Below are positions 6,596 through 60,222 of a DNA stretch of 64,000 bases, piece by piece; the first letter of the stretch is position 1, and every line of letters begins with the position of its first letter. Location: contig NZ_FNJA01000007.1 in assembly GCF_900104385.1 (NCBI RefSeq), positions 124,001 to 188,000 of the forward strand, given 5' to 3'. The notes beneath the pieces were generated by a model. That model was not told where the DNA came from. It searched no databases and saw nothing but the letters and a program-made list of their open reading frames with translations. The translations under genes and the position numbers were made by a program. This stretch comes from Rhodoferax sp. OV413 (lineage in GTDB: Bacteria > Pseudomonadota > Gammaproteobacteria > Burkholderiales > Burkholderiaceae_C).

Positions 6596-6658
6596 GCTAT
6601 AAATTAAATAGCTGCCTGCGCTTGTTGAATAAGCGCCACAGGCCTTTTTCTTCTAAAT
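6596..6658 (+). repeat. Palindromic element, copy A (within pmd operon)
   Basis: It begins GCTATAAATTAAATAGC, then has a TGCGC-TTGTTGAATA-AGCGC hairpin and a CACAGGCCTTTTTC tail. It fills the gap between pmdF and the tctC-like gene, so it would be transcribed in the operon mRNA and could act as an RNA stability or partial termination element. Confidence 0.75.
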
Positions 6659-7354
6659 TCAGTCGATGTACTTCAAGCCGGCTTTTTCCAGCGGTTCGCG
6701 CATCTTGTACATGTCCAGACCCAGCACACCGGCGGCCAGCTTGGCGCGCTTTTCGCCTTCGAAGCTTTCGCGGTGCTCGGCGGCGTCGGCCACCTGCGCA
6801 GCAATCGCGGCAGGCACGACGACCACGCCGTCCACATCGGCGATCACCACGTCACCGGGATTCACCACGGCGCCGGCACAGACGATCTGCACATTCACCG
6901 AGCCCAGCGTGGCCTTGATCGTGCCCTTGGAGTTGATGGCTTTGCTGAACACCGGGAAGCCCATTTTTTCGAGGTCGGCCACATCGCGCACGCCGCCGTC
7001 GATGATCAAGCCCTTGGCGCCGCGCGCCTGGAAGCTGGTGGCCAGCAGGTCGCCGAAGAAGCCGTCTTCGTTGTCGGTGGTACAGGCGGCCACGGCCACG
7101 TCGCCGGGCTGCAATTGCTCGGCCGCCACGTGCATCATCCAGTTGTCGCCGGGCTGCAGCAGCACGGTAACGGCCGTGCCGCAGATCTTGGCGCCGTTGT
7201 AGATCGGCCGCATATAGGGCTTCATCAGGCCGACGCGGCCCATGGCTTCGTGGATGGTGGCCACGCCGAGCTTGGACAGGCGCTCTACCGCAGCCTTGTC
7301 GGCGCGCACGATGTTGCGCTTGACGATGCCGAGGTTGTTCATAGGGACGCTCAT
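6659..7354 (-). CDS. pmdF: 4-carboxy-4-hydroxy-2-oxoadipate aldolase / oxaloacetate decarboxylase
   Basis: This LigK/PmdF-type class II aldolase splits 4-carboxy-4-hydroxy-2-oxoadipate into pyruvate and oxaloacetate and usually also decarboxylates oxaloacetate. It is the last step of the pathway. The 231 residues show the RraA-like fold: [11 protein letters not shown], the metal- and substrate-binding [20 protein letters not shown] (Arg-Asp in GGVRD), and [17 protein letters not shown] with the conserved Asp pair. The start is the ATG at 7354 with an AGGAG site 6 bp upstream. The much longer open frame reaching 8014 is an out-of-phase shadow of pmdE. It follows pmdE by 20 bp. Confidence 0.95.
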
Positions 7355-12849: not shown

Positions 12850-13601
12850 TCCTCTGGCGCCGCACGCTGCACACCGCCGCCCTGCTGGCGCTGGCAGGCT
12901 TGGCGGGCGCGGTGCAGGCCATCAGCTTCGAGCAGGTGCAGCGCATCAAAGCGCAAGAGGCCATTCCGCGCTGGAAGGTCGAAGCCCTGCGGGCCCAGGC
13001 CCTGCGCAACACCCCGCCCGATGCCGCCACGGCCAGCGCATGGCGCGCGCTGGATGCGCAAACCGACCCGCAGGTCGGCAAGGCCCCGCTGGAGCAAGTG
13101 GCCGCCGCCCGCAACGAAGACGAGCTGCTGACCAACGCCAGCTGGCTGCGCTGGCGCATCCTGTCCGAGAAAGCCGATGCGCGATTTTCCTTTGTCTACG
13201 CGGCCCAGCTGAGCCGCATGCGCGACGAGCAAGGCAATTTCGACCAGGAAGCCACGATCTTCTACTTCCACGCTAAGCTGGCTCTGACCCTGGACGGCAT
13301 GCGCTGCAGCGACCGGACCAAGGCCGAACACCTGAGCACCTGGTACGCCCAGCAAAACGACCTGCAGGCCCTGGCGCAAAAGTCCAGCCGCATGCCGGCC
13401 GCCGAAAAATCCGCGGCCATCCTGGAAGCCATCGCCATCGAGGAAATGCTGGGCGAGCGCCCGCCCATGGGTTGGCTGTGCCCGCGCCGCGGTGCGGACG
13501 ACAGCAGCGGCCCGGCCCGCTACCTGAGCGACACCGAGTGGCGCAAATACCGCGCCGACCAGCTGGAGCAGCTGACGCGCAACGCCATGCGCGATTTATA
13601 A
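12846..13601 (+). CDS. Exported hypothetical protein (251 aa)
   Basis: I do not recognise this protein. It begins with a clear cleavable signal (HTAALLALAGLAGAVQA, then ISFEQVQR), so it is probably periplasmic. The mature part is almost all helical and polar, with two cysteines (Cys near residues 157 and 217), and has a pattern like uncharacterised proteobacterial exported proteins. The start codon overlaps the mmuM stop (ATGA), so it is translated with that operon, though a link to methionine metabolism is not obvious. Its last codons and stop (GATTTATAA) are also the first bases of a palindromic repeat, so the repeat has set the C-terminus. Confidence 0.75.
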   Translation: MILWRRTLHTAALLALAGLAGAVQAISFEQVQRIKAQEAIPRWKVEALRAQALRNTPPDAATASAWRALDAQTDPQVGKAPLEQVAAARNEDELLTNASWLRWRILSEKADARFSFVYAAQLSRMRDEQGNFDQEATIFYFHAKLALTLDGMRCSDRTKAEHLSTWYAQQNDLQALAQKSSRMPAAEKSAAILEAIAIEEMLGERPPMGWLCPRRGADDSSGPARYLSDTEWRKYRADQLEQLTRNAMRDL

Positions 13602-13656
13602 AAAATAGGGCTCTAGCGCAGGTATATAGTGCGCCACCAGCTACCATATTTATAGC
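13593..13656 (-). repeat. Palindromic element, copy F
   Basis: On the minus strand it reads TTGCTATAAATATGGTAGCT, then a GGCGCACTATATACCTGCGC hairpin, then CTAGAGCCCTATTTTTTATA. Its left end encodes the stop codon of the gene ending at 13601. It lies between two same-strand genes and may reduce read-through. Confidence 0.8.
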
Positions 13657-13666
13657 AAGCGTGACA

Positions 13667-14767
13667 ATGCACACAGACTACCCCACCCTGCCCTCCTCCC
13701 TGCGCTGGCGCCCTGCCGCCATCGGCCTGGCCTGCAGCCTACTCTGGGCCCATGCCGGCGCACAAACCGCCCCCAGCCTCCAGCCCAGCAGCGGCCCCTG
13801 GGACAGCGGCGCCGGCTTCCATTTCGACCTGGGCAAGAAGAAGGCGCTGAAAACCCGCCAGTCGCTCAGCGGCCTGGCCTGCACGCTGAATGTCGCCCAG
13901 CAACGGATTTGCCTGGCGGCGTTTGACGAAGGCGTGGAAGCCCGCTTTGCCACCCTGGGCAAACAGGCGCTGATCCCCGATGCCGAACCGGTGCGCCTGC
14001 GCAGCGACGACGGCGAGCTGGACGCCGAAGGTGCCGCCACCGACGGCCAGATGGTCTACGTCACCGGCTCGCATTCGGCCAAACGCAATAGCTGCGACAG
14101 CAACCCTGACAGCCGCCACGTGCTGCGCTTCCGGCTGGACCCAACCACCGGCCGGGCGCTGCGCGCCGCCAACGGCAGCCTGGTGGATTACGCCGACACG
14201 CAAAACCTGTGGTCGGTGATGCAGGCCCAGCCCGGCCTGCAAGCCTATGTGGGCGAACGCAAATGCCTGGGCTCCGAAGGCACGGGGCAAAACGGCGTCA
14301 ACATCGAAGGCCTGGCGCTGCAGAATGGCCGCCTGTACTTCGGCTTCCGCGGTCCGGCGCTGGACGGCACGGCCGGCGTGCTGGCGGTGGATGCCGACGC
14401 ATTGTTCGGCGGCGGCGAGGTGCATGCCAGCCTGACGCCGCTGGCTGTCGGCCCGGGCCGCGGCATCCGCGACCTGGTGGCCGTCAAGACCGGCTTTCTG
14501 GTGCTGGCCGGCCCGGACGACAACGACGGGCACAAGAAGCGCAGCTGGACCATTTTCTGGTGGGACGGCCAGCACAGCGCCACAACCGCCACGCCCAAGC
14601 TGCTGGCGACGCTGGACCTGTCCAAGGTCATGCCGCGCGCCTGCGATAAAGAGCTTAAACCCGAGGCCATCACCGTGCTGGCCGAAACGCCCAAGGCCTA
14701 CCAGGTGCTGGTGCTGTCGGACGGCATGTGCGACGGCGGGCCGCTGGCGTTCACGCTGCCGCGTTAG
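13667..14767 (+). CDS. Exported DUF3616-type protein
   Basis: The 366-residue protein has a signal peptide (IGLACSLLWAHAGAQ) and then a repetitive beta-rich body like that of the DUF3616 family. That family is predicted to form a propeller-like structure: SGLACTLNVAQQRICLAAFD, GAATDGQMVYVTGSHS, NIEGLALQNGRLYFGFRGP and GIRDLVAVKTGFLVLAGP. The family has no established function, so I give none. The start is ATG 13667, just after a palindromic repeat. The longer frame to 13472 runs through that repeat and the previous gene. Its stop overlaps the stop of the convergent gene by 4 bp. Confidence 0.75.
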   Translation: MHTDYPTLPSSLRWRPAAIGLACSLLWAHAGAQTAPSLQPSSGPWDSGAGFHFDLGKKKALKTRQSLSGLACTLNVAQQRICLAAFDEGVEARFATLGKQALIPDAEPVRLRSDDGELDAEGAATDGQMVYVTGSHSAKRNSCDSNPDSRHVLRFRLDPTTGRALRAANGSLVDYADTQNLWSVMQAQPGLQAYVGERKCLGSEGTGQNGVNIEGLALQNGRLYFGFRGPALDGTAGVLAVDADALFGGGEVHASLTPLAVGPGRGIRDLVAVKTGFLVLAGPDDNDGHKKRSWTIFWWDGQHSATTATPKLLATLDLSKVMPRACDKELKPEAITVLAETPKAYQVLVLSDGMCDGGPLAFTLPR

Positions 14768-24086: not shown

Positions 24087-24090
24087 GCCA

Positions 24091-24155
24091 GATTTATAAA
24101 AAATAGGCCTGTAGCGCAGGTAATACCTGCGCTAGCAGCTATTTATTCTGTAGCA
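24091..24155 (-). repeat. Palindromic element, copy E
   Basis: On the minus strand: TTGCTACAGAATAAATAGCT, then the perfect hairpin GCGCAGGTATTACCTGCGC, then TACAGGCCTATTTTTTATAA. It fills the space between two convergent genes, where it could end transcription from both sides. Confidence 0.85.
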
Positions 24156-30967: not shown

Positions 30968-31032
30968 AATTTATGGAAAACAGGGCTGTGGCGCATATAG
31001 TACATGCGCGTACAGCTAGCAACTTTATAGCA
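30968..31032 (-). repeat. Palindromic element, copy H (degenerate)
   Basis: On the minus strand: TTGCTATAAAGTTGCTAGCT, then the hairpin CGCGCATGTACTATATGCGC, then CACAGCCCTGTTTTCCATAA. It fills the gap upstream of the ddpX start, so it may form part of its leader. Confidence 0.7.
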
Positions 31033-31575: not shown

Positions 31576-35240
<3,665 letters not shown>

Positions 35241-38909: not shown

Positions 38910-38975
38910 GCTATATTTTCAATAGCTGCTTACGCTGATTGAATCAGCGCCAGAGGCCGATTTTATGCCCAAGTT
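38910..38975 (+). repeat. Palindromic element, copy B
   Basis: GCTATATTTTCAATAGC, then CTTACGCTGATTGAATCAGC, then GCCAGAGGCCGATTTTATG. It is intergenic, upstream of the AAA ATPase gene and in the same orientation as copy C on the other side of that gene. Confidence 0.85.
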
Positions 38976-40261: not shown

Positions 40262-40320
40262 GCTATGTATTCCATAGCTACTCGCGTAGGTAGAACATGC
40301 GCTAGTGGCCGATTTAGTCT
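40262..40320 (+). repeat. Palindromic element, copy C
   Basis: GCTATGTATTCCATAGCTAC, then CGCGTAGGTAGAACATGCGC, then TAGTGGCCGATTTAG. It starts 13 bp after the AAA ATPase stop. The next 130 bp before tauA are AT-rich and probably hold the tau promoter. Confidence 0.8.
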
Positions 40321-42267: not shown

Positions 42268-43154
42268 CCGAGCTGAGTATCCAGAGTATTGCCAACACCG
42301 CGGCCCTGCAAAGCCCGGCCCCCGAAGCCGCGCCGGCGCCAGCGCCCACCGCGCCGCGCCTGGTGAAGATGCGCAGCTTCGGCATCGGCGAGCATTCCAC
42401 CGTGACGACCAGCGTCGCCACTGGCGCGGCGATTCTGCTGCTGTGGTGGGCCGTAGCCCAGTCCGGCAAGGTATCGCATTTGTTCCTGCCGACGCCGGCC
42501 GAAGTGCTGGCAGTGGCGAAGTCGATTCTGGAAGACGGCTACGCGAATGCCACGCTGTGGGAGCATGTGTCGGCCAGCCTGACGCGCATCCTGTCAGCCG
42601 CAGCCATCGCCATCGCGCTGGGCATCCCCATCGGGCTGTCCATGGGGCTGAACCGCTGGGCCAAGGGCATTTTCGACACGCCCATCGAGTTCTACTGGCC
42701 GCTGCCGCCGCTGGCATATCTGCCGCTGATGATCATCTGGCTGGGGATTGGCGAGACTTCGAAGATCGCGCTGCTGACGCTGGCGATGTTCGCGCCCATC
42801 GTGCTGTCGGCCCAAGCCGGCGTGCGCGCGCTGCCGCTGGAGCGGGTCAATGCCGCACTGTCGCTGGGCGCCAGCCGTTGGCAGCTTTTCAGCGCCATCG
42901 TGCTGCCCTCGGCCCTGCCCGAGATCCTGACCGGCATCCGCATCGCGCTGGGCGTGGGCTGGGGCACGCTGGTGGCCGCCGAGCTGATCGCCTCGACCCG
43001 CGGCATCGGCTACATGGTGATGTCGGCATCGCACTTTTTGGCGACCGACGCTGTGTTTGTCGGCATCGCGGTAATCGCCGTCTGCGCCTTTGCCTTCTCG
43101 TCCACCATGCGCCTGCTCGAAAGCTGGCTGGTGCCGTGGAAGGGCAAGTACTGA
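42264..43154 (+). CDS. tauC: Taurine/sulfonate ABC transporter permease
   Basis: The 296-residue membrane protein has about six helices and the SsuC/TauC pattern: [64 protein letters not shown], the EAA loop [20 protein letters not shown], and [17 protein letters not shown] polar N-terminal stretch of about 45 residues precedes the first helix. It overlaps tauB, and a palindromic repeat starts three bases after its stop. Confidence 0.93.
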
Positions 43155-43156
43155 AC

Positions 43157-43220
43157 GCTATTTTTTAAATAGCAGCTCGCGCAGGTAGTACCTGCGCCAG
43201 AGCCTTATTTTCCTAAAATT
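43157..43220 (+). repeat. Palindromic element, copy D (reference copy)
   Basis: GCTATTTTTTAAATAGC forms hairpin 1, GCGCAGGTAGTACCTGCGC is a perfect hairpin 2, and CAGAGCCTTATTTTCCTAAA is the tail. The tail overlaps the last codons (Leu-Gly-Lys) and stop of the RND pump gene on the other strand. It lies between two convergent genes, tauC and the pump. Other copies are named from this pattern. Confidence 0.9.
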
Positions 43221-46200
43221 TCCGCACCCACGGGGTGCGTTGGCGCTTCCTGCGCCTCGGCGGTATTGGCACCGGGCACGCTGCTGCGCGCAAACAGCGA
43301 GTACATGACGGGCACCACGAACACGGTGAGCAAGGTGCCCAGCGACATGCCGCCGACGATCACCCAGCCGATTTGCTGCCGGCTCTCGGCACCGGCACCG
43401 GTGGCAATCGCCAGCGGCACCGCACCCAGCACCATGGCGCCGGTGGTCATCAAAATCGGCCGCAGGCGCTGCGAGGATGCCTGCACCAGCGCGTCGACCA
43501 TGCTCTGGCCCTGCTCGCGCAGCTGGTTGGTGAACTCGACGATCAGAATGCCGTGCTTGGTAATCAGCCCCACCAGGGTGATCAGGCCAATCTGCGAATA
43601 CACATTCAGCGAGCCGTCCGACCATTTAAGAGCCAGCAGCGCACCGATCATCGACAGTGGCACCGACAGCATGATCACCAGCGGGTCGATAAAGCTCTCG
43701 AACTGCGCGGCCAGCACCAGGAAGATGAACACCAGCGCCAGCACGAAGACGATGACCAGCGCGCCCTGCGAGTTGCGGAACTCGCGCGAGGTGCCGTTCA
43801 GGTCGGTGGTGTAGCCGGGTTGCAGCAATTTGTTGGCCGTGGCTTCCATGAACTTCAACGCCTCACCCAGCGCGTAGTCGGGCGCCAGATTGGCCGAAAT
43901 GGTGGCCGAGCGGCGCTGGCCGAAGTGGTTCAGTTCGCGCGGCGACACATCTTCACGCACCTTGACCAGGGCCGACAGCGGAATCATGGTGTCGTTGCGG
44001 CCGCGCACATAGATGCCGGCAATGTCTTCGGGCGTGCTGCGGCCGCTGGCCACAGTCTGCACCACCACGTCGTACTGCTCGGCATCGCGCTTGTAGCGGG
44101 TCACATTGCGGCCGCCCAGCATGGTCTCAATCGCCTTGGCCACCACGTCGACGGCCACGCCCATGTCGGCGGCCTTCTCGCGGTCGATGTCGATGCGCAG
44201 CTCGGGCTTGTTCAGCCGCAGATCCACATCGGGCGCCAGGATGCCGGGGTTTTTGGCGATCTCGTCCATCATCTGGCGCACCACCTTGTTCAGGTTCTGG
44301 TAGCTGTCCGAGGTCTGGATCACGAAGTTGACCGGCCGCTCGCGGAAGCCCTGGCCCAGCGACGGCGGCGTGATGGGGAAAGCCGTCACACCCGGCAATC
44401 CGCTGAACTTGGGGCCCAGTTCACGGGCCAAATCCAAAGTGGTGCGCGAGCGCTGCTCCCAATCGGTGGTGCGGAAGATCACGCTGGCCTGCGACACCGT
44501 GGGGTTGCCGGCGGTGGTGAAGATGCGGTCGAACTCAGGATACGGCTTGCCGAGGGCTTCGATGGCCTTGGCATAGCGGTCGGTGTACTCCAGCGTGGCG
44601 CCATCGGGCGCGGTCACGTTGGCCAGGATGGTGCCGCGATCTTCGAGTGGCGACAGCTCCTGCTTCATGCTCGGATAGACAAAGTAGATGGCAGCCGCGC
44701 TGGCCAGCATCATGGCGATGACGATCCAGCGCGCCTGCAGCAGTACCCGCTTGATGGCCACGCCGGCGCCGCGCTGGTCCGCACCGGGCTGGTAGCCGGT
44801 GGCCACCAGCCAGCGGATCATCCGGCCATAGCCGTCCGAGATGCTGGTCAGCAACCGCTCCATGCCGCTGTCGAAGCGGTTCGGCTTGGGGTTGTGCTTA
44901 AGCAGCAGCGAACACATCATCGGTGTCAAGGTCAACGCCACAAATCCCGACACCACCACCGCACCGGCCAGGGCCAGCGCGAACTCGACAAACAGCCGGC
45001 CGGTGCGCCCTGGCGTGAAGGCCAGCGGCGCGTACACCGCCACCAGCGTAGCCGTCATGGTGACGATGGCAAAGCCGATTTCGCGCGCGCCCTTGATGGC
45101 AGCGGAGAACGGGTCCAGCCCTTCTTCGATGTGCCGGAAGATGTTTTCCAGCATGACGATGGCGTCGTCCACCACCAGGCCAATCGCCAGCACCAGGGCC
45201 AGCAGGGTCAGCGTGTTGATGCTGAAGCCGGCCAGCGACATCAGCGCAAACGTGCCGACCAAGCTGACCGGAATGGTGACGATGGGAATGATGGACGCAC
45301 GCAAGGTGCGCAGGAACACAAAGATCACCAGGGCCACCAGCACCACGGCTTCCACAATGGTGCGGTAGACGTTCTTGACCGAGCGGTCGATGAACAGCGA
45401 GTTGTCGTTGGCCACGTCAATCTGCACGCCGGCGGGCAGGTCTAGCTGCAGCCGGGGCAGCATTTCGCGTACACCGGCCGACAGCGTCAGCGGATTGGCC
45501 GTGGCCTGGCGGATCACGCCGACGGCCACCGCATCGCGGCCGTTCAGCCGCACGGCCGAGCGCTCTTCGGCAGCCCCCTCCTGCACCCGGGCGACGTCGC
45601 GGATCTTCACCGGGAAGCCGTTCACGCTCTTGATGGTGATGTCGGCAAACTGCGCGGGCCGCACCAGGTCGGTTTGCGAGGTGACGCTGAACTCGCGCTG
45701 CTGCGACTCGATGCGTCCGCCCGGCACCTCCAGGTTGCTGCGCCGGATCGCGTCTTCCACATCCTGCGTGGTGAGTCGATAACCGGCCAGCTTGTTGGCG
45801 TCCAGCCAGACGCGCATCGCGTACTTGCGCTCGCCAAAAATCCGCACATCGGCCACGCCGGTGACGGTTTGCAGACGCGGCTTGGCCACGCGGTTGATCA
45901 GGTCGTTGATCTGCAACGGGCTCAAGGTGTCGCTGGAGAAGGCCAGGAACACCACCGGAAACGCATCGGCTTCGACCTTGGCAATCACCGGCTCGTCGAT
46001 GGCCTGCGGCAGGCGGTTACGCACCCGGGCGGTGCGGTCACGCACCTCGGCGGCTGCGGCGTCAGCGTCCTTTTCCAAGCGGAAGCGCACCGAAATCTGG
46101 CTTTGCTCGGCACGGCTGATGGAGATGATCACGTCCACCGCGTCGATGCCGGCAATCGAGTCTTCCAGCGGCTTGCTGATCTGCGATTCGATCACTTCGG

Positions 46201-46366
46201 CCGAGGCGCCCGGATAGCGCACGGTCACGGTGACCACGGGCTCGTCGATCTTCGGGTATTCACGCACTGCCAGGCGGTTGAAGCTGACCGCGCCAACCAG
46301 CAGGATCAGCAACGACAGCACGGTGGCGAACACCGGGCGGCGGATGGAGGTTTCAGCGAGTTGCAT
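43205..46366 (-). CDS. RND multidrug efflux transporter (HAE1/AcrB family)
   Basis: The 1053-residue inner membrane pump has twelve predicted helices and two large periplasmic loops. It begins MQLAETSIRRPVFATVLSLL, the normal start. The proton-relay Asp pair lies in LVVDDAIVMLENI, and VFVFLRTLRASIIPIVTIP and LLTVFVVPVMYSLFAR are in place. It exports toxic compounds using the proton gradient, together with the adaptor encoded 18 bp upstream. No TolC-like outer membrane gene is adjacent. The last codons come from a palindromic repeat. The central part (KRVLLQARWIVIAMMLASAA) follows an Arg/Gly-rich stretch that is longer than in AcrB. Confidence 0.95.
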   Translation of the reverse strand: MQLAETSIRRPVFATVLSLLILLVGAVSFNRLAVREYPKIDEPVVTVTVRYPGASAEVIESQISKPLEDSIAGIDAVDVIISISRAEQSQISVRFRLEKDADAAAAEVRDRTARVRNRLPQAIDEPVIAKVEADAFPVVFLAFSSDTLSPLQINDLINRVAKPRLQTVTGVADVRIFGERKYAMRVWLDANKLAGYRLTTQDVEDAIRRSNLEVPGGRIESQQREFSVTSQTDLVRPAQFADITIKSVNGFPVKIRDVARVQEGAAEERSAVRLNGRDAVAVGVIRQATANPLTLSAGVREMLPRLQLDLPAGVQIDVANDNSLFIDRSVKNVYRTIVEAVVLVALVIFVFLRTLRASIIPIVTIPVSLVGTFALMSLAGFSINTLTLLALVLAIGLVVDDAIVMLENIFRHIEEGLDPFSAAIKGAREIGFAIVTMTATLVAVYAPLAFTPGRTGRLFVEFALALAGAVVVSGFVALTLTPMMCSLLLKHNPKPNRFDSGMERLLTSISDGYGRMIRWLVATGYQPGADQRGAGVAIKRVLLQARWIVIAMMLASAAAIYFVYPSMKQELSPLEDRGTILANVTAPDGATLEYTDRYAKAIEALGKPYPEFDRIFTTAGNPTVSQASVIFRTTDWEQRSRTTLDLARELGPKFSGLPGVTAFPITPPSLGQGFRERPVNFVIQTSDSYQNLNKVVRQMMDEIAKNPGILAPDVDLRLNKPELRIDIDREKAADMGVAVDVVAKAIETMLGGRNVTRYKRDAEQYDVVVQTVASGRSTPEDIAGIYVRGRNDTMIPLSALVKVREDVSPRELNHFGQRRSATISANLAPDYALGEALKFMEATANKLLQPGYTTDLNGTSREFRNSQGALVIVFVLALVFIFLVLAAQFESFIDPLVIMLSVPLSMIGALLALKWSDGSLNVYSQIGLITLVGLITKHGILIVEFTNQLREQGQSMVDALVQASSQRLRPILMTTGAMVLGAVPLAIATGAGAESRQQIGWVIVGGMSLGTLLTVFVVPVMYSLFARSSVPGANTAEAQEAPTHPVGAEILGK

Positions 46367-47854: not shown

Positions 47855-49414
47855 ATGAATCCGCTCAACCGCTTTTCGATACGTTTTCGCTTGTATTTCA
47901 GCACCGCGTTCTCGCTGCTGCTGCTGGTGGCCGTGGGCCTTTTGGGCTATTGGGCCCTGGAATCTACCCGCAGCACGGTCAAGGTGCTGGTCGAGGAAAA
48001 GGTGCAAACCCTGACCGACATGAACGAGCTGCGCATCACGCTGGCCCAGGTACGGCGCAACGAGAAGGACATCATCATCAGCTTCAACAATGCCGTGGAG
48101 GTCGCCACGCTGCGCGAATCCTGGCAGAAGTCGCTGCAGAGCTTCAACAAGGGCCTGGTCGACCTGCGCCGTGCCCAGGGCTCGGACACCACCTATACCA
48201 AGATGCTAGACACCTCGCAAGCCGAGATCAAGGCCTATACCGAAGGCATGGGCCCGGTGCTGGCGCAGATTGAAGGCGCGCAGATCGACGGCTCGGTCGG
48301 CGGCGCCTACGCCGAGAAGCAAAAAGTCCATGTGGACGCCATCGACAAGCTGTTGCAGCAAGCCGCCACCACTTCCCGTGAAGAAATGCAGGCCGCACAG
48401 GCCGGCATTGACCAGCGCACCGTGCTGCTGTCGGGCGTGCAAATGGGCATCCTGGTGCTGGCCTTGCTGGTGCTGATACCGCTGACCTTCTTCAGCGTGC
48501 GCAGCCTGACCAAGTCGCTGGCCGAGGCCTGCGATGTGGCGGAGCAAATTGCCCAGGGTAATCTGTTCGTGCCGGTGCAGGCCCAGCAAAACGACGAAAT
48601 CGGCCAGCTGGTCGGCGCCATGGGCCGCATGCAGACTTTCTTGCGCGAACTGGTTTCGCAGGTGCAGCTATCGGCACGCAACATCCACGCCTCCAGCACC
48701 GAGATCGCTGCCGGCAACCAAGACCTGAGCCACCGCACCGAGCACACGGCCGCCAACCTGGAAGAAACCGTGGCCTCCATGGCCGAGTTGACCGGCAATG
48801 TGCAGCAAAGCGCGGATGCCTCGCATGAAGCGAATCAAATGGCCCAGTCGGCCGCCCAGGTTGCTACACGCGGCGGCGAAGTGGTGTCGCAAGTGGTGGT
48901 CACCATGACCGAGATCAACGCCAGCTCCAAGAAGATTGCCGACATCATCAGCGTGATCGACAGCATTGCCTTCCAGACCAACATCCTGGCGCTGAACGCC
49001 GCGGTGGAAGCCGCGCGTGCGGGTGAACAAGGCCGCGGCTTTGCCGTGGTGGCCAGCGAAGTGCGGCTACTGGCCCAGCGCTCGGCACAGGCCGCCAAGG
49101 AAATCAGCAGCCTGATCAACACCTCGGTAGCCAAGGCCGACGAAGGCGCGCGTCTGGTGGCCCGCGCCGGCACCACCATGGACGATATTCTGGGCAGCGT
49201 GAAACAGGTGACGACCATCATCCGTACCCTGTCGACCCAGGCGGCGGGTCAAAGCAGCAGCATTGCCCAGATCAGCGAAGCCGTCGGCCAAGTGGACCAG
49301 ATCACGCAGCAGAATTCGGCCCTGGTCGAAGAGTCCGCCGCAGCATCGGAATCGCTGCGCGAGCAGGCCAATCTGCTGGCCAACGCCGTCAGCCGGTTCA
49401 AGCTGGAAGCCTGA
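47855..49414 (+). CDS. Methyl-accepting chemotaxis protein (four-helix-bundle sensor)
   Basis: The 519-residue chemoreceptor has an N-terminal membrane helix ([17 protein letters not shown]), a periplasmic four-helix domain (residues about 40-185), a second helix ([17 protein letters not shown]), a HAMP domain ([20 protein letters not shown]) and a long cytoplasmic signalling helix bundle. The hairpin tip is intact: [20 protein letters not shown], then [20 protein letters not shown]. It would signal through CheA/CheW to the flagella. The C-terminus lacks the NWETF-like CheR pentapeptide. The ligand is unknown. It lies between an efflux pair and the livF gene. Confidence 0.93.
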
Positions 49415-52966: not shown

Positions 52967-54139
52967 TTACTTCGCTTTTCCTGGATCTTTCACGTCTTTG
53001 ATGACCGCGAACTCGACGTTGTACAGCTGGCCGTTCTTGCGCTCCACCTTGCGCATGTAGATGTTTTGCACCACGTCGCGGGTTTGCGCGTCGATGAACA
53101 TCGGGCCGCGCGGGCTTTCAAAAATCTGCCCCTTCATCGCCGCCAGCAAGGCATCGCCACCGCCCTGCCCTTTGGAGGCGCGCAGCGCTTCGTAAATTAC
53201 CCGCATGCCGTCGTAGCCGCCCACGGCCATGAAGTTGGGGCGCAAGCCGCTATTGGCCTTGCCGAAGGCTTCGACAAACTTGGTGTTCAGGGCCGAAGGG
53301 TGGTCGGTCGAATAATGGTGCGCCGTCACCACGCCCAGGGCGCCGTCGCCCATGTCGTTCAGCTGGTCGTCGTCAGTCACGTCGCCGGTGCCGATCAGCT
53401 TGATGCCGGCCTTGTCCATGCCACGCTCCAGGAACTGCTTCATCACCGCCGCGCCCGCGCCCGAGGGCACGAACACGAACAGCGCATCGGGCTTCAAATC
53501 GCGTACTTTTTGCAAAAAGGGCGCGAAGTCCGGGCCGCGCAAAGGCACGCGCAGCGACTCCGGCACCTGGCCGCCGTTGAACTGGAAGCGCTCCTTGAAA
53601 TACTTCTCGGCATCCAGCCCCGGGCCGTAGTCGCTGACCAGGGTGACCACGGTCTTGATGCCGTTCTTCGGCGCCCAATCGGCCATGCTGACTGCCGCCT
53701 GCGGCAAGGTAAAGCTGGTGCGCACGATATAGGGCGAAGCCTGGGTAATGCTGCTGGTGGCAGCGGCCATCACCACCTGGGGCGTCTTGGACTGGGTGGC
53801 AATCGGCGCTGTGGCCAAGGCCGAGGGCGTGATGCCAAAGCCGGCCAGCACATTCACCTTGTCGTTGACCACCAGCTCCTGCGCCAGGCGTTTGGTGACA
53901 TCGGGAATGCTGGTGTCGTCCTTGACGATCAGCTGGATTTTCTTGCCGGCAACCGTGTCGCCGTTCTGCGCCATGTAAAGCTTGGCGGCCGCTTCGATCT
54001 GCCGCCCAGTCGAGGCCTGCTGCCCGGTCATGGGCAGGATCAGCCCGATCTTGAAAACATTCTCTTGCGCTATGGAATACGTAGCACCCATCGCAGTAAT
54101 GGCGAGCACGCTAGCCCGCAGAAAGAAGCGTTTTTGCAT
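52967..54139 (-). CDS. Branched-chain amino acid-type ABC transporter substrate-binding protein
   Basis: The 390-residue periplasmic protein has a signal peptide (RASVLAITAMGATYSIAQ) and the LivK-like type 1 fold: VFKIGLILPMTGQQASTGRQ, AKLYMAQNGDTVAGKKIQLI, VNVLAGFGITPSALATAPIA and FVPSGAGAAVMKQFLERG. The family binds leucine, isoleucine, valine, but in this group of bacteria also amides, urea or aromatic acids, so the ligand is open. AGGAG precedes ATG 54139. It is the first gene of the liv cluster. The 205-bp region upstream contains a CCCGCTTGC/GCAACGGG hairpin near 54288. Confidence 0.92.
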   Translation of the reverse strand: MQKRFFLRASVLAITAMGATYSIAQENVFKIGLILPMTGQQASTGRQIEAAAKLYMAQNGDTVAGKKIQLIVKDDTSIPDVTKRLAQELVVNDKVNVLAGFGITPSALATAPIATQSKTPQVVMAAATSSITQASPYIVRTSFTLPQAAVSMADWAPKNGIKTVVTLVSDYGPGLDAEKYFKERFQFNGGQVPESLRVPLRGPDFAPFLQKVRDLKPDALFVFVPSGAGAAVMKQFLERGMDKAGIKLIGTGDVTDDDQLNDMGDGALGVVTAHHYSTDHPSALNTKFVEAFGKANSGLRPNFMAVGGYDGMRVIYEALRASKGQGGGDALLAAMKGQIFESPRGPMFIDAQTRDVVQNIYMRKVERKNGQLYNVEFAVIKDVKDPGKAK

Positions 54140-54344: not shown

Positions 54345-55982
54345 TCAAGAGTAGGCCATCGTCAAGCCGCGCACGGGCGTGGCGGTTGCGACCACCGCCG
54401 TCGGTGCCGGGTCGGCACCCAGCGTAAACACCGACACCACCTGCACCAGGTCGCTGGCCTGGCCCTTCAGGCCGCTGGCGGCGGCGGCCATTTGCTCGAC
54501 CAGTGCGGCGTTCTGCTGGTTCACCTGGTCCATCTGGGTCACGGCTTCGCCGATCTGCGAGACGCCGGTGCTTTGCTCGGAACTGGCGGTGCTGATCTCG
54601 CCCATGATCTCGGTCACCTTGCGGATGCTGCCCACCACTTCAGCCATGGTACTGCCGGCCTGGTCGACCAGGGACACACCCTGCTCCACCCGCTGCACGC
54701 TGGCGGCAATCAACAGCTTGATCTCCTTCGCGGCGTCGGCCGAGCGGCTGGCCAAAGAGCGTACTTCCGATGCCACCACCGCAAAGCCGCGGCCCTGCTC
54801 GCCGGCCCGCGCCGCTTCCACGGCGGCATTCAAGGCCAGGATATTGGTCTGGAAAGCAATGCCGTCGATCACGCTGATGATGTCGGCAATCTTGCGCGAC
54901 GACTGGTTGATGCCCTGCATGGTGTCGACCACCTTGCCCACCACCTCGCCGCCGCGGATGGCCACTGCCGAGGCGCTCAGCGCCAGCTGGTTCGCACTGC
55001 GCGCACTGTCGGCATTCTGTTTGACGGTGGCGCTCAGCTCTTCCATCGAAGCCGCGGTTTGCTCGAGGGCGCTGGCCTGGTGCTCGGTGCGTGCGCTCAG
55101 GTCGTGGTTGCCCTGGGCAATTTCTGAGCTGGCCGTGGCTACGCCGTCGGCACCCTGGCGGATGGACTGCACGATCTGCGTCAGCGAGGCCTGCATGCGC
55201 GCCATCGCAAACACCACGCTGCGCTCATCGCCGGGCCGCAGCTGCACCACGCTGCTCAGATCGGCCTGGCTGATCGACGTAGCCAAAGCCGCCACCTCGG
55301 CCGGTTGCCCGCCCAGCTGGCGCAGCAGGTGCCGGCTGATCAGCCAGGCCAGGGCGATCGACAACAGCACCGACGCCACGGTGACCCCGGCCAGCACCAG
55401 ATTGGCCTGCACCACCGCCTGCCGGCCTCGGGCCTTGTCTTGCTCCGCCTGGTTCAGCTGGTCCTGCCAAAGCTTTTGCAGCGCTTGGTACGCGGCCTGG
55501 TAGACCTGCTGGCTCGGACCGTCGAAGAAGTCGCTGGCCTCCATGGCCCGCTCGCCCTCGGCGCCGGCGGCGGAATTCGACATCTGGAAGAAGGTGCCGC
55601 GCAGCGCATGGAACTTGCCGATCGCCGTCGCCAGATTGGCCTGCAGCGCCGGGTCGGCCTGGGCACCGCTGCTGGCCTTGTAGCGGGCCAGTGCGGCATC
55701 CAGCTCTTTGACCGCAGCTTTCACCACCACCTCTTCGCGGTCCTTCGAGGGCATGTTCAGCGCTGCCAGGTGCTTGAGCTCGGAGATGCGCACCAGTTGC
55801 AGTTTGTCATTTGCCTCACCCAGCGCGGTGAGCGCCGGCAAGGTGGTGTCGACCAGCGATTCGAAATCCTGGTGCATGGCCGCCATGCGGCTCCAGGCCG
55901 TGACGGCCAGCACCAGTACCAAAACCACCACCATGCCAAAAGCCAAGCCCAACTGACGCCCCACACTGATTCTCGAAAGCAT
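54345..55982 (-). CDS. Methyl-accepting chemotaxis protein
   Basis: The 545-residue chemoreceptor has an N-terminal membrane helix ([20 protein letters not shown]), a periplasmic helical domain, a second helix ([20 protein letters not shown]), a HAMP region and a signalling bundle with the intact tip [20 protein letters not shown], then [20 protein letters not shown]. The start is ATG 55982; a GTG at 55994 is possible. The C-terminal tail (residues after about 510) is Ala/Thr/Val-rich and has no CheR pentapeptide. It is downstream of nothing obvious and lies upstream of the liv cluster on the same strand, so a role in amino acid taxis would be only a guess. Confidence 0.93.
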
Positions 55983-56184: not shown

Positions 56185-59100
56185 TTAGCCCAGCCAGCGG
56201 CGCGCGTTGTGCCAGAGCTGCATCCAGGGGCTGAAGCTGCTGACATCGCCGCTGGTCCAGCTCTTTTGCACGTTGCGGAACACGCGCTCTGGGTGCGGCA
56301 TCATCGCGGTGAAGCGGCCGTCGGCCGTCGTCACTGCGGTCAAACCGCCGGCGCTGCCGTTCGGGTTGAACGGATAGGCTTCGGTGGCCACACCGTGGTT
56401 ATCGGTGAAGCGCATTGCAGCAATCGCCTTGGTCGCGTCGCCGCGGTAGGCAAAGTTGGCATAGCCCTCGCCATGCGCCACGGCAATCGGCATGCGGCTG
56501 CCGGCCATGCCTTGCAGGAACACGCTGGGCGATTCCAGGATTTCCACCATCGACAGCCGCGCTTCAAAGCGCTCGCTGCGGTTGGTGGTGAAGCGCGGCC
56601 AGGCCTGCGCGCCGGGGATGATGTCGGCCAGCTCGGCAAACATCTGGCAGCCATTGCAGACGCCCAGCGCCAGCGTGTCCTGGCGGGCGAAGAAGGCCTT
56701 GAACTCTGCGGCCAGCACCGGGTTGAAAGTGATGCTGCGCGCCCAGCCTATGCCGGCGCCCAAGGTGTCGCCGTAGCTGAAGCCACCGCACGCCACCACG
56801 GCCTGCATGTCCTGCAGATGCACCCTGCCGGTTTGCAGATCGGTCATGTGCACGTCAAAGGCTTCGAAACCGGCCTCCGAAAAGGCGTAGGCCATCTCGG
56901 TATGCGAATTCACGCCCTGCTCGCGCAGCACAGCGACTTTCGGACGGGTCAGCTTCAAGGCCGGTGCTGCTACTGTTTTCGTAGCCACTGGCGCAGACAG
57001 TGCCTGCGCCAGAGCACTGTTTGGCTCTATAAATACATGCAAGCCCGGGTCGTTGGCCGCACCAGCTGCCGCATGCTCGGCATCGGCACAGGCCGGGTTG
57101 TCGCGCTGCTGGCAGATCTGCCAGCTGACGCTGTCCCAGACCTGGTGCAAGTCGGCAAGCTTGGCGCTGAACACGGCCTTGGCATCGCGCCAGACCTGGA
57201 CTTCGCCGACACCGGCGCTGATTGCGCTGTCGGCGGGACGGGTCTTGCCCACGATGTGGCTGTGCTTGCCCAGGCCGTGCGCGCGCAGGGTCTGCACCAC
57301 GGCGTCGCGGTCGGCGGTGCGCACTTGCAGCAGCACGCCCAGTTCTTCGTTGAACAGTGCCTTCAAGGTCAATTCTTCGCGGCGTGCGCCGACCTGGCCC
57401 GCCCAGTTCTTGCTGTCGCCCACGTCCATGCGGCTGTCGCTGATGCCGTCGCCTTCGGTGACCAGCAGATCCACATTCAGCGCCACGCCGACATGGCCGG
57501 CAAAGGCCATTTCGCAGGCAGCCGCGAACAGGCCGCCATCGCTGCGGTCGTGATAAGCCAGGATTTGCGGGCGCGCGGCGTTGACGGCATTGACCAGGTT
57601 GACCAGGTCTTGCGCGTCGTCCAGATCCGGCACGGCGTCGCCCACCTGGTTCAGGGTCTGCGCCAGGATGCTGCCGCCCATGCGGTTCTGGCCCTTGCCC
57701 AGGTCGACCAGGATCAAGGTCGTGTCTTCGGTCGCATTCAGCTGCGGCGTCAAGGTGCCACGCACATCGGGCAGGCTGGCGAAGGCGGTGACGATCAGGC
57801 TGACCGGCGAAGTCACCTTTTTCTTGTCATTCGCGTCGGTCCACTGCGTGCGCATCGACAGGCTGTCCTTGCCCACCGGGATCGAGATGCCCAGCGCCGG
57901 GCACAGCTCCATGCCGACGGCCTTGACCGTGGCGTACAGCGCGGCGTCTTCGCCGGGTTCGCCGCAGGCGGCCATCCAGTTGGCCGACAGCTTGACGCGT
58001 GGCAGCTCGAACGGCGCGGCCAGCAGATTGGTGATGGCTTCAGCTACGGCCATACGGCCCGACGCGGGGGCGTTGACGGCGGCCAGCGGCGTACGCTCGC
58101 CCAGCGCCATCGCCTCGCCGGCAAAGCCCTTGTAGTCGGCCAGGGTCACGGCGCAATCCGCCACCGGCACCTGCCAGGGGCCGACCATCTGGTCGCGGTG
58201 GCTCATGCCGCCCACGGTGCGGTCGCCGATGGTGATCAGGAAACGCTTGCTGGCGACGGTGGGGTGGGCCAGCACGGCGATGGCGGCTTTCTGCAGCTCC
58301 ACGCCGGTCAGCTCCACCGGCGCAAAGGTGCGCGCCACGGTCTTCACATCACGGTGCATCTTGGGCGGCTTGCCCAAGAGCACATTCATCGGCATATCGA
58401 CCGGGCTGGCGGCAGCCTCATCGGCCACGATCAGTTGGCGCTCTTCGGTGGCCACACCGACGACCGAGAACGGGCAGCGCTCACGTTCGCACAGTGCGGT
58501 GAAAGCTTCCAGCGAATCCGGTGCAATGGCCATCACATAGCGTTCCTGGCTCTCGTTGCACCAGATTTCCTTGGGGCTCATGCCGCTTTCTTCCAGCGGC
58601 ACGGCCCGCAGGTCGAAGCGTGCGCCCCGGCCGGCATCATTCGTCAGCTCGGGGAAGGCATTGCTCAGGCCGCCGGCGCCCACGTCGTGGATCGCCAGGA
58701 TGGGGTTCTTGTCGCCTTGCATCCAGCACTGGTTGATGACTTCTTGCGCCCGGCGTTCGATTTCCGGGTTGCCGCGCTGCACCGAGTCAAAGTCCAGCGA
58801 CGCGGCATTCGCGCCGGTGGCCATCGAGCTGGCCGCACTGCCGCCCATGCCGATACGCATGCCTGGGCCGCCCAGCTGCACCAGCAGCGAACCGGCGGGG
58901 AATTCGATCTTGTGGGTTTGCGTGGCATCGATGGTGCCGAGTCCGCCGGCGATCATGATGGGCTTGTGGTAGCCGCGGCGGATGCTGTCCACGTCGGAGG
59001 TGACGGTCTGCTCGTATTCGCGGAAGTAGCCCAGCAGATTGGGCCGGCCAAATTCGTTGTTGAAGGCCGCGCCACCCAGCGGGCCCTCGACCATGATTTG

Positions 59101-60222
59101 CAGCGGGCTGGCGATGTGCTCGGGCTTGCCGATGGACACGTCGCCGTCTTGCGGCCAAAGCTTGGAGACGGTGAAGCCGGTCAAACCTGCCTTGGGCTTG
59201 GAGCCGCGTCCCGTCGCGCCCTCGTCGCGGATCTCGCCGCCAGCGCCGGTGGAGGCGCCGGGGAATGGCGAAATGGCGGTCGGATGGTTATGGGTTTCGA
59301 CCTTCATCAGCACATGGTGCTGGGCGCTACTCTTTTCATAGCTGCTCGCGCTGGTAGTACCTGCGCCAGATGCCGATTTGGCTAAAAATCGCTCGATCTC
59401 GAAGCCTTCCATCACCGAGGCATTGTCCGAGTACGCCACCACGCTGTGCTGTGGCGCCAGCTGGTGGGTGTTGCGGATCATGCCGAACAGGCTTTTCGGT
59501 TGCGCCACGCCGTCGATGGTGAACTCGGCGTTAAAAATCTTGTGGCGGCAGTGCTCGCTGTTCGCCTGGGCGAACATCATCAGCTCCACGTCGCTGGGGT
59601 TGCGCTTCAAGGTAGTGAAGGCGTTGACCAGGTAGTCGATCTCGTCGTCGGCCAGGGCCAGGCCGAATTCGGTGTTGGCAGCATCCAGGGCGGCACGGCC
59701 GCCGCCCAACACGTCGACCTGGGCCAGGGGCGCAGCTTCCAACGAGGTGAACAGCTCTTGCGCCTGGCTGCGGTCCAGCATGGCGCTTTCGGTCATGCGG
59801 TCGTGCAGCAGGTCGGCCACCTGGGCCAGTTGCTCCGCGGACAACACGGTTTTGCCCAGCAGCGGCTGCTTGACCGCCAAACGGTATTCAACGAAACGCT
59901 CGACCCGGCGCACCGCCAGGCCGCAGTTATGGGCGATGTCGGTGGCCTTGGAGGCCCAGGGCGACACGGTGCCAAAGCGCGGGGTGACCACCAGCAGCGG
60001 GCCTTCGGCCGGGCCAGCATAGGGGTCGCCATAGGTCAGCAGGCCGTCCAATTGGGACTTGACGGCGTCCGTCAGGGGCGCATCGCTGGCCACCAGATGC
60101 ACAAAACGCGCAGCCACGCCGCTGATCTTGTCGTGGATGGCTTGCAGCCGGGGAAGAATTTGCTGGATACGGAAGTCGCTGAGGGCATTGCCGCCCTCAA
60201 ACTGGGAAATGTGCAAGGTCAC
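56185..60222 (-). CDS. purL: Phosphoribosylformylglycinamidine synthase
   Basis: This large single-chain enzyme converts FGAR to FGAM with ATP and glutamine in purine synthesis. The 1345 residues hold the N-terminal PurS-like domain, two FGAM synthetase domains ([56 protein letters not shown]) and the C-terminal class I glutaminase with Cys1189 ([11 protein letters not shown]) and His-Glu in [10 protein letters not shown]. The start is GTG 60222 ([20 protein letters not shown]). Two in-frame segments look foreign. Residues 278-299 (Ser/Ala/Gly/Thr-rich, just before [13 protein letters not shown]) and residues about 1063-1085 (linker to the glutaminase) are encoded by copies of the palindromic repeat. 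Both lie in loops outside the active site. Confidence 0.97.
56969..57035 (+). repeat. Palindromic element, copy K, inside purL linker
   Basis: GCTACTGTTTTCGTAGC, then GGCGCAGACAGTGCCTGCGC, then CAGAGCACTGTTTGGCTCTA: all three parts of the family in order. On the purL strand it encodes [20 protein letters not shown] in the linker between synthetase and glutaminase domains, which is about 9 residues longer than in E. coli. Confidence 0.85.
59326..59390 (+). repeat. Palindromic element, copy L, inside purL loop
   Basis: GCTACTCTTTTCATAGC, then CGCGCTGGTAGTACCTGCGC, then CAGATGCCGATTTGGCTAAA. It is almost identical to intergenic copies. It encodes [20 protein letters not shown], a loop about 8 residues longer than in E. 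coli PurL. Relative to copy K it is read in a different frame. Confidence 0.9.

Follow-up and report, generated by a model that had tools for sequence, protein, structure and literature searches.

A palindromic repeat read in frame in purL, probably a REP-like element of the Comamonadaceae

The DNA that encodes one loop of PurL in the genome studied here is probably (about 0.77 by our estimate) a copy of a high-copy, REP-like mobile palindrome of Comamonadaceae that landed in frame and has since been inherited as a tolerated spacer. The gene lies in a 64-kb window, that is, the whole stretch of DNA that was analysed (positions 124001-188000 of contig C7), from a source genome of 5.74 Mb in 23 contigs. 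A palindromic element in purL had been noticed earlier in a sequence-only reading of the window. That observation holds, and the element is present in hundreds of copies and in several enzyme genes.

Protein-coding palindromes are best known from Rickettsia and Wolbachia, and the Comamonadaceae genera that carry the present element are generally regarded as free-living. Here a REP-like element sits inside housekeeping enzymes, some homologues of which are longer and some shorter, so that they can be compared directly. Two old questions can thus be tested in organisms that are harmless: do mobile repeats really supply conserved enzymes with new loops, and are REPs moved by RAYT proteins? The element is also a warning for annotation: recurring peptides encoded by the element are translations of a repeat and not domains.

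The repeat family and its two copies in purL

Members of the family begin with a GCTA-N9-TAGC stem, which is AT-rich; a second hairpin, based on GCGC, comes next, and the tail is close to GGCC-ATTT-ATAAAT. The GCTA-N9-TAGC pattern occurs 10 times in the 64-kb window, against 0.35 expected from shuffles, and nine of the ten sites belong to the family as judged by a nucleotide profile, the site at 54069 being a non-member. The profile had 66 positions and was built from 32 seed copies, with both purL copies and three look-alike pattern matches excluded and one look-alike (L005) retained. Two of the seed copies (L020 and L030) sit in called genes, and because they are both seed and in-gene copies their own profile scores are inflated.

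The best-scoring copy in the window (24090-24154, minus strand, 58.2 bits) lies between called genes, as do the copies at 6596-6659 (plus strand, 54.5 bits), 38910-38971 (plus, 51.6 bits), 40262-40318 (plus, 40.0 bits) and 30968-31018 (minus, 26.9 bits). The plus-strand copy at 43157-43220 (53.6 bits) is at a gene end, where it overlaps the last bases of the minus-strand gene 43205-46366. A minus-strand copy at 13593-13656 (34.1 bits) falls in the 5' part of the called ORF 13472-14767, the start of which may be later. We also observed a 24-bit match at 34137-34175, in the N-terminal part of a minus-strand ORF (32112-34292) with an uncertain start codon, the product of which we take to resemble DNA ligase LigA. 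An Rfam scan of the 64-kb window gave no match. Elsewhere in the window, an inverted repeat pair of 175 nt, 82% complementary, was seen at 48932-49106 and 54719-54893, 5.6 kb apart.

The purL gene, encoding phosphoribosylformylglycinamidine synthase, is a 1345-aa ORF on the minus strand (56185-60222) with a GTG start, and its product matches the PDB chains 6jt9 and 1t3t. The loop element was located where it had been claimed, on the plus strand at 59326-59389. It is 64 bp long and scored 47.6 bits (E = 6.3e-13) with the profile from which the purL copies had been left out. The purL ORF runs across it on the minus strand and reads it in frame, just ahead of the conserved segment named in the sequence-only reading, in agreement with the read-through proposed earlier. 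When PurL was aligned to the best solved chain, 6jt9, a single gap of 7 residues fell exactly at the element, close to the gain of about 8 residues that had been put forward earlier. Two of the earlier statements were too strong. The element had been described as creating a new loop, and there is indeed extra length at the insert; however, the element spans about 21 codons and PurL is only 7 residues longer here than the solved enzyme, which argues that a shorter loop pre-existed and was enlarged or partly replaced. The copies had also been called nearly identical, which was an overstatement, since the closest relative of the loop copy in the window (the 43157-43220 copy) is 79% identical over 71 nt (59317-59387 against 43148-43218). 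A model of a PurL fragment placed the insert between two predicted strands but was too poor (mean pLDDT 62) to serve as evidence for exposure; the insert may lie at the protein surface.

A second and weaker copy, absent from the earlier reading, was found in frame in the linker that leads into the glutaminase domain of PurL (56969-57027, plus strand, 26.1 bits, E = 3.3e-6).

We picture the history of these copies as follows. New copies would land mostly between genes or at gene ends and some of them inside genes, where they would survive when the frame is stop-free and a loop or linker tolerates the change in length; they would then be read as protein. In purL, two linkers would have been filled, either once before the carrier genera separated or a few times at one site, and inherited since. 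Movement would probably be brought about by a transposase of the RAYT (Y1 HUH) type, with single-stranded hairpins as its substrate. The element was not seen to insert or excise, and no target-site duplication was found.

A candidate mobiliser and related repeat systems

From comparisons of loci, a RAYT transposase is plausibly the mobiliser of the element. A single Y1_Tnp (PF01797) match was found in the source genome, and a partial element sits at the stop codon of this gene. Across 150 genomes of the family the count of GCTAN9TAGCNGC ranged from 0 to 533, and PF01797 was found in 112 of them, many of which are repeat-poor. We set 24 RAYT loci from repeat-rich genomes, in which the pattern is matched 45-533 times, against 16 from repeat-poor genomes (0-8), the comparison leaving out 11 of 30 retrieved loci (L294-L303 and L316). 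A profile match was present at the RAYT stop codon in 6 of the 24 repeat-rich loci, the source genome included, and in none of the 16 repeat-poor loci; only one of the 24 (L315) had the element on both sides of the RAYT gene. An element edge lies within 20 nt of the stop codon in 170 of 1261 genes (13%) of the source genome. Adjacency to the stop codon is therefore weak evidence for RAYT, and we set it aside as proof of a link.

The flanks of the RAYT genes were more distinctive. A GCT[A/C] arm starting 13-17 nt before a TGTCCC-type motif was found in 19 of the 24 repeat-rich loci and in 0 of the 16 repeat-poor ones, in a post hoc test for which the loci had been chosen, the pattern was written after reading them and whole loci were searched. 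Because the RAYT loci share ancestry, these 19 matches are not 19 events. In L339 the pattern match was recorded elsewhere in the locus, and its RAYT flank also fits. In 133 of 145 copies, [A/G]TAG stands in front of the second hairpin of the element, as in REPs. Only 44 of the 145 have GTAG, the tetranucleotide conserved in REPs, and 89 have ATAG, which counts against the RAYT link.

It is possible, although we hold it below even odds, that another transposase or a MITE system, and not RAYT, spread the element. One repeat-rich genome (G159, 169 repeat matches) is not among the 112 with a PF01797 match, and elements at the RAYT stop codon or on both sides of the gene are as infrequent as described above, all of which would fit such a system; the arm that accompanies the TGTCCC-type motif in repeat-rich loci and the tetranucleotide before the second hairpin speak for RAYT instead.

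Two further observations were made on these genomes. Among the loci L206, L314, L315, L318 and L324-L343, the arm and the TGTCCC-type motif are near the end of the Y1_Tnp gene in 19 of 24, and a TCTGACCCC motif often occurs further on from them. In many repeat-poor genomes of the family, GCTAN9TAGCNGC is far below its reversed pattern (1 against 205 in G064), possibly a sign that these genomes avoid TAGC or CTAG words.

Several described repeats resemble the element in part. With REP/RAYT systems (PMC8266576) it shares hundreds of mostly extragenic palindromes, a TAG-containing tetranucleotide before the hairpin and one RAYT-type Y1 gene; it differs from REPs in that it is longer, has an added GCTA-TAGC stem, carries ATAG more commonly than GTAG, and occurs with a fraction of its copies in frame in genes. 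By its published description (PMC3110155), the BRE repeat is likewise found in Comamonadaceae, as well as in Bordetella, with some copies wholly within coding sequences, whereas it is about 90 bp long, 69% GC in Bordetella, sometimes tandem and present in at most 29 copies. RU/ERIC and Correia elements (PMC2229807) are also small mobile repeats with open frames fused to genes, but these elements of enterobacteria and Neisseria, respectively, are of MITE type, about 100-170 bp long and most with terminal inverted repeats. For a Comamonadaceae genome, that of P. naphthalenivorans, one report (PMC5217627) gives 125 copies of a motif ATAGCT(N)22CAAAAG, 18 of them in genes. We considered whether this motif represents the same family, and no match was established: five Polaromonas loci had 0 matches to the exact pattern and the source-genome sample had 1. 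In-gene repeats had thus already been noticed in this group, as the BRE and Polaromonas papers show (PMC3110155, PMC5217627). Among the matches listed in a search of open-licence literature, titles and abstract openings mentioned no element in purL and no in-frame REP-like elements of Comamonadaceae. Comamonadaceae names are absent from PMC2817692, PMC6006769 and PMC3733652, the first of which mentions the betaproteobacterium Thauera.

The purL sites in relatives

We compared 88 purL genes, consisting of 80 loci, seven genus members and the window gene. The loop matched the profile (E <= 0.01) in 19 of them, in every case at the same site and in the same orientation, and the next-best loop, among the remaining 69, had an E value of 0.24; by eye, the loops of L042, L053 and L066 resemble decayed copies. 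The linker copy was detected (E <= 1e-4) in 9 of the 82 purL genes in which the linker was located, the window gene included, and all nine were in one orientation. Most of the 69 non-matching loops are shorter, and some reach the same length with different DNA (L057, L069, L071, L084, L095 and L101 among them); loop length alone is no marker of the element.

A PurL tree was made from 81 rows with the insert columns removed, seven rows judged actinobacterial or short having been dropped (L083, L089, L091, L092, L095, L100 and L107). All 19 rows with the loop element fell in one 41-row clade, within a poorly resolved backbone. Presence and absence of the element by lineage had been expected earlier, and this pattern was found, with all matches inside one clade; a loop shared by all betaproteobacterial PurL but encoded by unrelated DNA, which would have spoken against an insertion, was not seen, as 69 of the 88 loops are without a repeat match. 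The source PurL belongs to a genus of 8 genomes within a clade of Polaromonas, Rhodoferax, Acidovorax, Limnohabitans and Hydrogenophaga, all genera of the Comamonadaceae, and Polaromonas is the nearest outside group with weak support (SH-aLRT 81). By parsimony on this tree, the loop requires 8 changes and the linker 6. The loop sequences would fit a single old insertion that was later lost or decayed, and equally a small number of insertions at the one site; the shared site and orientation in all 19 loops favour few insertion events.

Among six genus members, pN/pS was 0.215 for the loop insert, 0.42 for the linker insert and 0.094 for the rest of PurL, these values being uncorrected and from non-independent pairs. 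A pN as high as that of the loop insert was found in 8 of 117 20-codon windows of PurL, and within the genus the ends of the insert are conserved and its middle is variable. The value of about 0.22 suggests that the peptide, presumably translated, may matter, and it is the peptide, not the palindrome, that seems loosely kept in the loop. In our best explanation the insert would be a tolerated spacer, under purifying selection that appears weaker than that on the rest of the protein.

Folding of the coding strand separated the two purL copies. The loop copy folded no better than shuffled sequences (z = -0.35, 72 of 200 shuffles as good), whereas the linker copy did (z = -2.31, 3 of 200), as did the copy at 43140-43225 (z = -2.72). 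An RNA-structure reading is thus unlikely for the loop and viable for the linker. We consider it improbable that the repeat is kept in genes in general for a DNA or RNA structure, such as an mRNA hairpin or a protein-binding site, with the peptide incidental. The position of most copies between genes or at gene ends would suit such a role, as would the two copies that fold well, but the loop copy folds no better than shuffles, its pN/pS is well below 1, and a perfect first stem is rarer in genes (7 of 37 in-gene copies against 80 of 215 other copies), where profile scores are also lower.

We also doubt that the insert was co-opted, altering the activity, partner binding or regulation of PurL and being kept by a positive function. 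The loop element does persist in several genera, with conserved ends and pN/pS below 1; however, this ratio is more than double the value for the remainder of PurL, one member of the same genus (G005) has no loop match, and PurL linkers of relatives are occupied by unrelated repeats. The linker that leads into the glutaminase domain has AEPVEAL-STSSGRTG in L044 and VIPAQAGI-MDSRLRGND in L042, and a third PurL linker has PELVEG-STSSART in G001 and TPALSPEGRG in G005. Counted in their own genomes with at most one mismatch, such repeats number 114 (control, 0) in G001 and 53 (control, 0) in the genome of L042. Because unrelated families are found at the same PurL linkers, linker tolerance, rather than the target preference of a single element, seems to choose the sites of insertion. 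The PurL linkers of relatives that hold palindromic families unrelated to the element, each read in frame, are at L042:7768-7920, L044:7086-7223, L124:2543-2656 and L125:1875-2054.

Copies inside other genes

GCTAN9TAGCNGC is matched 316 times in the whole source genome, whereas the reversed pattern is matched 66 times. A profile scan of 1.626 Mb (28% of the genome, the window included) gave 261 distinct copies of at least 18 bits, which extrapolates to about 920 per genome; the reversed sequence of the same 1.626 Mb gave one match at 10 bits and none at 12. Genes were called with a simple custom gene finder (1261 genes, 85% coding in the sample). By these calls, 189 of the 261 copies are intergenic, 26 lie across a gene end, 9 are inside a gene less than 60 nt from its end, and 37 are deeper inside, the last number being an upper bound that includes some native look-alikes and maybe some copies in overlong 5' ends. 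At 15 bits or more, the real profile found 40 in-gene matches and eight block-shuffled profiles found none.

The frames in which genes read the element are uneven. In 162 other copies of at least 30 bits, the stop-free share of the six frames was 54, 25, 2, 2, 49 and 37%, and the 37 in-gene copies are distributed over the same frames as 9, 1, 4, 0, 19 and 4. Stops close two of the six frames in nearly every copy; 33 of the 37 copies lie in the four open frames, and 4 occupy a frame that is nearly always blocked. Stop avoidance accounts for part of this bias. The most-used frame has 19 in-gene copies against 10.7 expected, an excess that may include look-alikes.

The likeness in concept to Rickettsia palindromic elements (RPE), proposed in the sequence-only reading, is borne out. 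RPE and Wolbachia palindromic elements (PMC2229807, PMC3767692) are palindromic, occur in intergenic DNA as well as in frame inside conserved genes, are found in orthologues at the same site, and at some sites belong to different repeat groups; 19 reading frames with RPE are counted in a review, according to which the gmk product keeps its activity with a changed substrate affinity (PMC2229807). Here, up to 37 of the 261 copies lie deep in called genes, purL and moeA among them, and orthologues carry the element at the same site in the purL loop (19 of 88, one orientation) and also in MoeA and GluQ. By contrast, RPE are 100-150 bp long and the present element is about 65 bp (66 profile positions); the hosts of RPE are Rickettsiales, and the present element is from Comamonadaceae, with a REP-like layout and a possible RAYT link. 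Most likely, then, the element works like Rickettsia palindromic elements and is not one of them. More tentatively, and in our view less likely than not, a REP/RAYT system of Comamonadaceae might act as a standing supplier of linker peptides: some 100 genes per genome may have a translated copy, biased to a few stop-free frames, and a few tolerant sites such as the PurL linkers may have been refilled repeatedly by unrelated palindromic families in different lineages.

The 37 in-gene copies are spread over 36 proteins, and all 20 of those scanned against Pfam have known domains. By these domains we take them to include HrpA-, GluQ-, MacB-, MoeA-, ComEC-, LdcA-, asparaginase- and MetG-type proteins. 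Ten of the proteins were aligned to PDB chains, and seven of these have additional residues at the element or next to it: 7 residues in PurL, and about 25 in MoeA, 20 in LdcA, 35 in GluQ, 14 in asparaginase, 9 in CobU and 8 in AlkA-Ada. NadE (+3), MurI and PrmB were rejected as insertions, their PDB alignments having no real gain in length.

Homologues show filled and empty sites in MoeA and GluQ. The anchor-to-anchor distance in MoeA is 56-60 aa in 5 of 30 loci, the source locus included, and 31-45 aa in the rest, which include paralogues. In GluQ it is 53 aa in 5 of the 8 genus genomes, 45 in G007, 36 in G001 and 38 in G005; the GluQ loci L270, L273 and L275, from other genera, have 53-57 aa and a similar peptide. 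A filled and empty split was also sought among LdcA homologues and no clean one was found: most genus members have 61 aa between the anchors and G005 has 58, much of the family has 52-65, and homologues further out have 41-49. Together with NadE, MurI and PrmB, this indicates that some in-gene matches are look-alikes or replacements. By eye, the matches in an ABC transporter, in LapB-, WaaF- and Tmk-like proteins and in lipoyl-domain linkers look native.

That the PurL loop is an ordinary variable loop, with DNA that resembles the repeat only by coincidence or because both have the same codon bias, is very unlikely: loops vary in length across the PurL set, some repeat-free loops being equally long, and NadE, MurI and PrmB do have matches without added length, but the loop copy was found at E = 6e-13 by a profile that excluded it, the eight shuffled profiles had no in-gene match at 15 bits, and the 19 loops share one orientation with the other 69 no nearer than E = 0.24.

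The reading of the element as a tolerated insert is also in line with MoeA, for which the structural model was of good quality (mean pLDDT 88, pTM 0.82). Residues 309-324, within the MoeA insert, lie between two strands and are predicted to form no secondary structure, with pLDDT below 50.
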